DNA of 41,371 nt from an uncultured Chthonomonas sp. Lineage in GTDB: Bacteria; Armatimonadota; Chthonomonadetes; Chthonomonadales; Chthonomonadaceae. The DNA lies in assembly GCA_903919615.1 (NCBI GenBank), contig CAIXIX010000598.1, positions 1 to 41,371 on the forward strand. The letters are read 5' to 3'. How positions within the stretch are numbered: the first letter of the stretch is position 1; the number at the start of each line of letters is the position of its first letter. Position numbers and translations under genes: made by a program. The notes beneath the pieces were generated by a model. The model saw only the letters and a list, made by a program, of their open reading frames with translations, was not told where the DNA came from and did no database searches. Below, piece by piece: positions 352 through 41,371 of the stretch.

Positions 352-873
352 GTGAAAAGATCTATTGTGGCCGTCGCCGTCCTTGGGATATTCGCCCTGA
401 TCGCCTCGCCTGTCGTAACACGGCACGCGGGCGCTCAGACTGCCACGTACCACGTCGGTCAGCGTATCGCAGATTTCTCGCTGAAAGATGATACGGGCCG
501 AACCGTTACGTTATCGCAGTACCGGGGCAAGGTGATTATCCTGAACTTCTACGCTGCCTGGTGACCCGGCTGTAATGAGGAGGCTCCTCATTTAGAGAAC
601 GAGGTCTGGCGTCGGTTTAAGGACAAGGGCGTGCAGGTGCTTGGAGTTTCGATTCAAGAGGGCAAAGACCCTATTGGCAAAATACGGCGTTTTCGCAAAA
701 AGCACCGGCTCACCTACCCGATCGTATCGGACGAGCCGGCGGTAATCATACAGAAGTTTGGGTTCTCGGGCATTCCGCAGAACATCGTACTGGATGCAAG
801 AGGCGTATACGTGAGTGCCCCTGAAACGATAGAACAGACCCTTATCGCTCTCAAAAAACTTGGCAAGAAGTAG
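352..873 (+). CDS. Secreted AhpC/TSA-TlpA family thiol oxidoreductase, probable selenoprotein (UPGC active site, TGA at 562-564)
   Basis: This gene encodes a thioredoxin-fold oxidoreductase of the peroxiredoxin-like AhpC/TSA-TlpA group, expected to act outside the cytoplasmic membrane. The start chosen is GTG 352, with GGAG eight bases upstream, and it gives a signal peptide (KRSIVAVAVLGIFALIA). Residues 31-70 carry the typical 'ADFSLKDDTGRTVTL' and 'GKVIILNFYAAW' blocks. The next codon is TGA (562-564), exactly where the first Cys of the WCxxC motif belongs, followed by Pro-Gly-Cys (Cys74) and NEEAPHLE. The frame then stays open to TAG 871-873, with the cis-Pro loop 'FSGIPQNIVLD' and normal family sequence. 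Reading TGA as selenocysteine (residue 71) gives a complete 173-residue protein. A hairpin at 574-592 fits a bacterial SECIS. The alternative is a recent nonsense mutation of a TGC codon. No Sec machinery genes lie in the window. Confidence 0.78.
574..592 (+). promoter_or_regulatory. Candidate bacterial SECIS hairpin
   Basis: AATGAGG (574-580) pairs perfectly with CCTCATT (586-592) around the loop AGGCT (581-585). The stem begins nine bases after the TGA and the apical loop sixteen bases after it. That is inside the spacing window known for bacterial SECIS elements. The loop has a G in its first two positions and resembles the AGGUCU loop of the E. coli fdhF element. The hairpin is inside the coding sequence, as bacterial SECIS elements are. 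Confidence 0.65.
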
Positions 874-29704: not shown

Positions 29705-30336
29705 AACCTATTATAAAACCGCTTAACCCAGATTCGCTCAGCACGAACCAGGGCCGATCCAGATCTGCCCCTTACCCTGATCGATGCGGCGCCACTACCT
29801 GCTTTCGGAGTCTCGTCCCCCGCCCTTACCCTAACAATGTATCATATCTTTGGTAACAATGGAGGCACTCCAGGATAGCCCTGTTTCGTGGGTTTTATGT
29901 GTGATTTGTTATCGGCGTGCGTGCTGGACCCTCACCCCACCTACCCTTTCCGCTTGGGTCCCTCCTCCACGCCCTAGTTGCTTCGCAACGCGCGGGAACC
30001 CTGGTAGAGAACACGGGAGAGGGGCCAATGCACCGCCTACCGGACGCAGCTCAGCGGGTTTCAAACTGGACACGACGCCAGCCTATCGCGCCGCCAACAT
30101 CCGGCAGGCACAGGAACCCTGCGATTCGAGCGGCCAGAGCTTACCTATGCACATCTCAACCTCAGCGACTTCAAAGTCTTTATCGACTTCGCAGACGTAG
30201 ATGTGCTCGATTGAACTGGTAAAATGGCGTGGTTGTGATTAGCTGGCTGGCCGCCCGGTGATTGCTCGGTATGCAGGCGCGGGGTTTGTGTGCACATCGG
30301 TAAATTGCAAACACGACAGCAGATACGCACAGAAAA
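29705..30336. other. Gene-poor repeat-bearing interval
   Basis: No frame here looks like a protein. At about 30042-30095 it contains a single diverged copy of the 100-bp unit that is tandemly repeated at 31301-31510 (shared words CAGCTCAGC, GGTTTCAAACTGGACACGAC). The rest is unremarkable. Confidence 0.5.
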
Positions 30337-39821: not shown

Positions 39822-41198
39822 TTGACAAACAGAATTTGCTCATTTTCGGCTGCCTTTGGCGCATTAGCTGCAGTTACATTAATTACTGGCGACCTTTCGA
39901 CAGCGCATTCCCAGATACCCAGTTCTTTCATTAGCCTTCCGTCTACTGCTATCCCTGGCAGCTACTACTCTACGGGTGTCTTATTGTATGAGCCCACTAC
40001 GAACCTTCTACTGGGCACCTCGCAGGGTGGTGGTTTGTATGGAAGCGGGTCCCTGTTCAGCGTCAACCCATTTGTAGGCGCCAGCAGTTTCAACGATAAT
40101 TTTTACAGTTTTACTGGCGGCGCAGATGGCGGCGGTCCATCGGCAGGCGTCATAACCGACGTCTCACATAACCTGTTCGGCACAACCACTTACGGTGGCG
40201 CCAATGGTTCTGGCGATGTATTTGAGTTGAAGTACACAGCAACGTCTCCGACATCGGGATATTACGCATCAGCTCCTACCGATATATACAATTTTGCAGC
40301 GAACGAAGTGGTAGGGAGCGAGCTCACGCTATCCGGCGGCCATCTCTATGGCGTCGCGAATACGGGAGGATCGGCAGGACCAGGCGGGCCAGGAACTGTG
40401 TTTGAAATTATTGACCCTTATGCATCCACGCCTTCGCCGAGTAACGGAGTAACGCTATACGATTTTGCAAACAGCACAGGCTCAAGTCCAACCGGTGGTG
40501 TTGCGGTTACGAGCAATCCTAATGGTCCTGGTGTTACGCTCTTTGGCGGGCTTGGAATTGGCCTGGGTGGCGCCTCGGGCAGCGGCGGGATCTACTCTTT
40601 GACCGTCACAAATCCTGGGGATCCGGCAAGCGGAAGCATAAGCATCAACGATGTTTACGACTTTACGGGCCAATCAAACGGCGATGGATCCGGGCCCGTC
40701 GGCGCACCTTTAATGATTAATGGCAGCCTTTATGGTGTGACGAATTCGGGTGGGTCCGGCGGGAGCGGCGCGATCTACGAAATAGCCAATCCCTATGCCT
40801 TAACGCCTGCCGACACGATACTTAACTCTTTCAATGAAGGAGTTAATGGCAGCGCACCCTACGGAACGGCGATTCAAGACGGACGGTTCTTGCTGGGCAC
40901 TACCAGCCAGGGAGCGTTCGGAGGCATTCCCGGCAATGGGACGGTATGGTCTTATGATTTGGTTACCAATCAGATAAACACTCTGCTCTCATTTGATGGC
41001 GCAAATTCTGGAGCAATTGCCTATGTTGGGCTAGCCGAAATCCAGCCTGGGATCTTTGCGGGAGTCAATACTTCGGGTGGAGCAAACGGGAATGGAGTGT
41101 TGTTCATATTAACACCCGAACCCGGCAGCATTGCAACCATGTTTATTGGCGCGGTGACTCTTGGCGGAGTACTTGTTAGAAGGCGGAAGAGCAAGTAA
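39822..41198 (+). CDS. GloVer-repeat PEP-CTERM secreted protein
   Basis: TTG 39822 with GGGAG eight bases upstream gives 458 residues and a clean signal peptide (ICSFSAAFGALAAVTLITGD); the longer frame from ATG 39729 adds a leader that hides it. The mature protein is built of repeats such as LLGTSQGGGLYGSGSLFSV, LFGTTTYGGANGSGDVFEL, LYGVTNSGGSGGSGAIYEI and FAGVNTSGGANGNGVLFIL. This is the 'GloVer' (Gloeobacter/Verrucomicrobia) tandem repeat, a surface propeller-like fold. It ends with LTPEPGSIATMF, a hydrophobic helix and RRRKSK, a PEP-CTERM sorting signal. A G-rich minisatellite starts directly after the stop codon. Confidence 0.85.
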   Translation: MTNRICSFSAAFGALAAVTLITGDLSTAHSQIPSSFISLPSTAIPGSYYSTGVLLYEPTTNLLLGTSQGGGLYGSGSLFSVNPFVGASSFNDNFYSFTGGADGGGPSAGVITDVSHNLFGTTTYGGANGSGDVFELKYTATSPTSGYYASAPTDIYNFAANEVVGSELTLSGGHLYGVANTGGSAGPGGPGTVFEIIDPYASTPSPSNGVTLYDFANSTGSSPTGGVAVTSNPNGPGVTLFGGLGIGLGGASGSGGIYSLTVTNPGDPASGSISINDVYDFTGQSNGDGSGPVGAPLMINGSLYGVTNSGGSGGSGAIYEIANPYALTPADTILNSFNEGVNGSAPYGTAIQDGRFLLGTTSQGAFGGIPGNGTVWSYDLVTNQINTLLSFDGANSGAIAYVGLAEIQPGIFAGVNTSGGANGNGVLFILTPEPGSIATMFIGAVTLGGVLVRRRKSK

Positions 41199-41371
41199 GA
41201 GGGATGCAGGGAAGAGGGATGCAGGGATGCAGGGAAGAGGGATGCAGGGAAGAGGGATGCAGGGATGCAGGGAAGAGGGATGCAGGGATGCAGGGAATAG
41301 GGATGCAGGGAAGAGGGATGCAGGGATGCAGGGAATAGGGATGCAGGGAAGAGGGATGCAGGGAAGAGGGA
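41199..41371 (+). repeat. G-rich minisatellite with G-quadruplex pattern, reaching window end
   Basis: The array is built from 15-base units AGAGGGATGCAGGGA (and a variant ATAGGGATGCAGGGA) interspersed with an 8-base unit TGCAGGGA. The strand has GGG runs separated by 4-5 bases throughout, which meets the G3-N1-7 quadruplex pattern many times over. It begins within six bases of the PEP-CTERM stop codon and continues past the window edge. Confidence 0.9.

Follow-up and report, generated by a model that had tools for sequence, protein, structure and literature searches.

A conserved in-frame TGA, very probably a selenocysteine codon, in a thioredoxin-like gene of an uncultured Chthonomonas

The window analysed here, a stretch of 41,371 nucleotides from an uncultured Chthonomonas sp., contains a gene whose apparent stop codon is very probably a selenocysteine (Sec) codon. 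We read the TGA in this way because the codon and an RNA signal that follows it are both kept in related bacteria. As predicted from its sequence, the gene very probably encodes an exported thioredoxin-like enzyme of a common kind (ResA/TlpA-type AhpC-TSA) in a Sec form. Comparison between genomes documents the codon, the RNA structure and the selection upon it, the sel genes and the predicted fold. We hold with high confidence that the product would act as an exported thiol:disulfide oxidoreductase of the AhpC-TSA/ResA-TlpA type, with Sec as the attacking residue.

The gene, its TGA codon and its protein

The gene and the signals around it are as follows.

273-302, + strand: sigma-70-type promoter, TTGACA-N18-TACAAT, 11/12 consensus
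341-344, + strand: probable ribosome-binding site GGAG, as read from the sequence
352-873, + strand: predicted selenoprotein gene, GTG start to TAG stop (871-873), 173 aa including Sec71
562-564, + strand: in-frame TGA, read as selenocysteine (Sec71 of WUPGC) from the comparison of homologues
574-592, + strand: putative SECIS hairpin, stem 574-580/586-592, loop 581-585 AGGCT (A-U closable, apical GGC)
877-912, + strand: 12-bp perfect inverted repeat 3' of the stop codon, a possible terminator hairpin without a T run

An earlier, sequence-only reading of the window had proposed that a single TGA interrupts this frame, which is otherwise open on both sides through to the TAG, and that it takes exactly the place of the first redox Cys of a W-C-x-x-C motif. 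Both points are borne out, the latter in a protein of the PF00578 family. The promoter it had placed upstream is also present, and in the genomes G001, G010, G028 and G040 promoter-like sites with 10-11/12 consensus have a similar spacing to the TGA. The choice of start codon is consistent with several homologues in which 69-72 codons separate the start from the UGA. At the far end of the window, 41021-41371 (- strand) is a low-complexity repeat at the contig edge, probably a tandem one (translation SLFPASLHPSS...).

Homologues were sought in 121 genomes, the window's own and 120 relatives. The 13 best genomes besides the window's own carry a homologue with exactly one TGA, as does each of the next 12 matches below the window's own in the homologue list, and in every case this TGA stands at the U of UxxC, at the same codon as in the window gene. 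Both comparisons that the sequence-only reading had suggested thus came out in its favour, with TGA at the equivalent codon in these 13 homologues and in further UxxC genes, and with Cys homologues that carry exactly WCPGC. The Cys homologues, which come from Krumholzibacteriia and from other bacteria, encode an identical WCPGCNEEA by way of TGC or TGT and lack the hairpin; counterparts with this peptide were recorded at L122, L123, L124, L126, L131, L132, L144 and L145. In the region downstream of the TGA, G002 and G012 differ with a pS of 0.75 and a pN of 0.10; judged from such sequence differences, purifying selection acts past the TGA. A tree built from 61 domains has only about five changes of the Sec label (mean after shuffling, 18.8). 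The window protein clusters with Sec proteins of its own family and order, in a weakly supported group that also includes one long-branch actinobacterial Cys row.

PF00578 (AhpC-TSA) is the best Pfam match of the window protein (101.6 bits, cut-off 26). The predicted structure (pLDDT 91.7) is ResA-like, with Sec71 directly preceding the active-site helix at 72-92. The best Foldseek matches are ResA, at a TM of about 0.7-0.88; ResA proteins form the majority of the closest neighbours in sequence and fold, and Bcp/PrxQ-type structures also appear among the fold matches. Five columns are invariant in the 22 Sec proteins, namely Sec71, Cys74, Glu77, Pro79 and Pro142; Pro142 is where the cis-proline is expected. 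The N-terminus resembles a short export signal, and the protein is probably exported.

The hairpin downstream of the TGA

The sequence-only reading had described a perfect 7-bp stem with loop AGGCT beginning nine bases past the TGA, and its coordinates are right. Positions 562-606 fold with an MFE of -17.4 kcal/mol (z = -2.85), and the 42 nt after the UGA with one of -13.4 kcal/mol. When the peptide was recoded synonymously 100,000 times, all eight pairs (seven plus the loop-closing A-U) formed in only 270 cases. Taken alone, the folding energy and the recoding test are suggestive and not decisive.

Comparison is more informative about the hairpin. It is common to the window gene and twenty other TGA genes, the 13 best homologues and seven more, at an equal distance from the TGA, with 7-8 bp, a loop of the form AG[G/T]NT and 16 nt between TGA and loop. 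In a gapless alignment of these 21 genes over the 8-pair helix, 94% of the helix cells are paired, five of the eight pairs show compensatory changes and 21 cells are altered on both sides. Neither the observed paired fraction nor the covariation score was matched in any of 500 shuffles, and sliding the register by 1-3 columns left 0-3 cells with two-sided changes. The two strands of the helix change in step, at times altering the protein (E to A together with H to R): in place of GAG-GAG-GCT-CCT-CAT (E E A P H) there is GCG-GAG-GCT-CCG-CGT (A E A P R) or CGG-GAG-GCT-CCC-GAG (R E A P E). The closing A-U is present in all 21 rows, and the loop varies between AGGCT, AGTTT and AGTAT, with AGTCT in a later match. 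We accordingly reject a chance hairpin as the explanation, since covariation across TGA genes speaks against it. When 24 Cys-type sites were scanned, they showed at most 5 of the 8 pairs (mean 3.0), whereas 21 of 22 Sec genes have 7-8; these 24 include a few chance reading-frame matches, and the true redoxins among them reach at most 4 pairs.

The SECIS of E. coli fdhF is a short hairpin right after the UGA with GG in its loop. The structure found here is alike in both respects, with AGGCU as its loop. A published bSECIS model (PMC13188914, Fig. 2) describes an apical loop of 3-9 nt on an upper stem of 4-16 bp, a G within the first two loop positions, the loop pattern N1-G-[G/U]-N-N2 in which N1 pairs with N2, 16-37 nt from UGA to apical loop and an MFE of at most -7.5 kcal/mol. 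The window hairpin has a loop of 5 (or 3) nt, a stem of 7 (or 8) bp and a spacing of 16 nt (565-580); the pattern fits AGGCT, AGTTT, AGTAT and AGTCT alike, and the energy lies within the model's limit whether or not the UGA is included with the 42 nt that follow it. A search of Rfam with the hairpin gave no meaningful match.

A covariance model of the hairpin, R1, found two sites in the window's own genome, where it scored only part of its first-look candidates, and both are UxxC redoxins. One is the window gene; the other, on contig C567 (L033 1432-2547, - strand), encodes a redoxin of 371 aa with the sequence YGUGACREEFPH, carries a hairpin with loop AGTTT, and is a probable second selenoprotein gene of this genome. 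R1 sites occur in 21 further genomes among the 120 relatives, and the four new ones that were inspected are UxxC redoxins. selA is present in 18 of the 22 R1-bearing genomes and in 44 of the 99 others (Fisher p = 0.001, uncorrected for genome relatedness). One UxxC redoxin with a TGA (UDGC; L113, on contig C55 of G081) is without this hairpin and was excluded from R1; it possibly uses another SECIS class.

Selenocysteine machinery and proposed decoding

The sequence-only reading had pointed to selA, selB, selC and selD as its principal check. In the own assembly (7.42 Mb, 614 contigs, 96% complete) three of these were found, all over their curated cut-offs: selA (497 bits), selB (372 bits, with SelB winged-helix domains present) and selD (363 bits). 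The fourth, the tRNA-Sec gene selC, was not found in this assembly with RF01852 and two tRNA-Sec patterns. RF01852 matched tRNAs for Ser, Leu, Arg and Tyr; the first pattern was too strict for the T arm of this lineage, and four matches to the looser one were rejected as not tRNA-gene-like. Among the observations that the sequence-only reading had named as speaking against itself, the missing selC is the single one encountered, and that formally; the sel genes, the TGA orthologues, the WCPGC homologues and the fit to the bSECIS model all support it.

The genomic context suggests why selC is missing. selA adjoins selD on contig C569. Past selD this contig continues for only about 140 bp, and these belong to a dispersed repeat that recurs in related form in contigs C294 and C275 and, as a short copy, in the window. 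In the congeneric genome G001, selA and selD are followed some 50 bp on by a UCA tRNA-Sec. An assembly break is the best explanation, since C569 stops in the repeat where G001 has its tRNA-Sec. The GC-rich repeat itself was recorded at L020 1-141, L030 63-219, L021 12786-12846 and window positions 30004-30027. Fourteen genomes with close TGA homologues were searched for a UCA tRNA-Sec; it scored over the cut-off in 10 of them and did not in G000, G010, G050 and G076. The last three, which have TGA homologues and are 61-88% complete, yielded no selA either.

Two neighbours of the sel genes deserve mention. selD (L020 142-1224, - strand, contig C569) has an in-frame TGA of its own, in CAGUAAKIG, at what we take to be the place of the enzyme's catalytic Sec/Cys; its downstream RNA is without this hairpin class, and SelD is itself probably a selenoprotein. 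About 90 bp past selB lies a 374-aa double AhpC-TSA/redoxin gene (L001 3510-4634, + strand), whose first domain has lost its CxxC and whose second has SAKCPC.

The decoding of the window gene would proceed as follows. SelA and SelD would supply Sec-tRNA, and SelB carrying Sec-tRNA(UCA) would bind the hairpin 9 nt past the UGA, so that the ribosome would put Sec at position 71 instead of terminating. Once exported, the protein would probably reduce or exchange disulfides through a Sec71-Cys74 selenenylsulfide. Sec insertion, export, the reaction and its substrates are what we infer from the comparisons.

Alternative readings and relation to known families

That the TGA might be a true stop, the mark of a pseudogene, a truncation or a sequence error, is a reading to which the lack of a detected selC in the own assembly lends something, but we consider it highly improbable: an equivalent TGA occurs in independent genomes, the protein past it is conserved and the hairpin covaries. 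Pseudogene and error are excluded by this conservation. We give just as little credence to a selenium-free reading of UGA as Cys or Trp, by general reassignment or a suppressor tRNA. It would agree with the Cys of the homologues and with the unseen tRNA-Sec, but would leave the hairpin-specific signal and the sel genes unexplained. The code is moreover not reassigned, since TGA ends 8 of the 23 window genes examined and TGG encodes Trp in them, and we reject reassignment on this use of TGA as a stop; an in-frame TGA occurs in this gene only.

It is less far-fetched, if still unlikely, that the gene encodes a true selenoprotein that is a peroxiredoxin-like peroxidase and not a thiol:disulfide oxidoreductase. 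Although AhpC-TSA is the top Pfam match and Bcp/PrxQ-type structures occur among the fold matches, Sec-peroxiredoxins have the motif TxxU (PMC1088965; PMC13188914), whereas UxxC stands here at the thioredoxin position, and ResA dominates the nearest neighbours in sequence and fold. The preferred reading remains a Sec-containing thiol:disulfide oxidoreductase. We also lean, with less assurance, towards the idea that the core clade of this exported UxxC redoxin contains Sec forms only, and that selection on the hairpin drives paired changes of amino acids beside the active site (E-E-A-P-H versus A-E-A-P-R), with RNA decoding, and not protein function, dictating the residues.

These genes form a natural experiment in which an identical peptide occurs as Sec with the hairpin or as Cys without it, and such Sec/Cys pairs allow testing of how far SECIS pairing limits the residues beside the active site. 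The clade also adds selenoproteins and a selenium-using lineage to a list that is still mostly predicted, and automatic annotation is likely to truncate such genes at the TGA.

With ResA, TlpA and StoA the window protein appears to share the fold, the CxxC position, the cis-Pro and the expected general role. It differs in having Sec for the first Cys and in scoring 94.5 bits against the ResA profile NF002854, below the curated cut-off of 170. NF041054 (WAxxUGC_long) is likewise ResA-like with Sec in the redox site, but its motif is WAxxUGC where the window protein has WUPGC, and the match reaches 47.5 bits against a curated cut-off of 300. A literature search for Armatimonadetes or Armatimonadota with selenocysteine or selenoprotein found nothing relevant. 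The closest description is that of the 'Prx-like thiol:disulfide oxidoreductase' (PF00578, UxxC/UxxU), which is on lists of predicted bacterial selenoproteins (PMC9312934, PMC13188914). The window protein has the PF00578 domain and a UxxC encoded with UGA and a bacterial SECIS, and by description it is alike in family, in its thioredoxin-type UxxC and in a SECIS right after the UGA (PMC9312934, PMC13188914, PMC1088965). The window clade differs in its WUPGC/WUGPC followed by N-[E/A/R]-E-A-P, its putative short N-terminal export signal and its tightly conserved AG[G/U]NU hairpin, and its lineage is not named in those three papers. The novelty is modest, since Sec-containing UxxC AhpC/TSA proteins are already in the selenoproteome literature: this is a new, well-supported member clade of the predicted Prx-like selenoprotein family, and not a new kind of selenoprotein.
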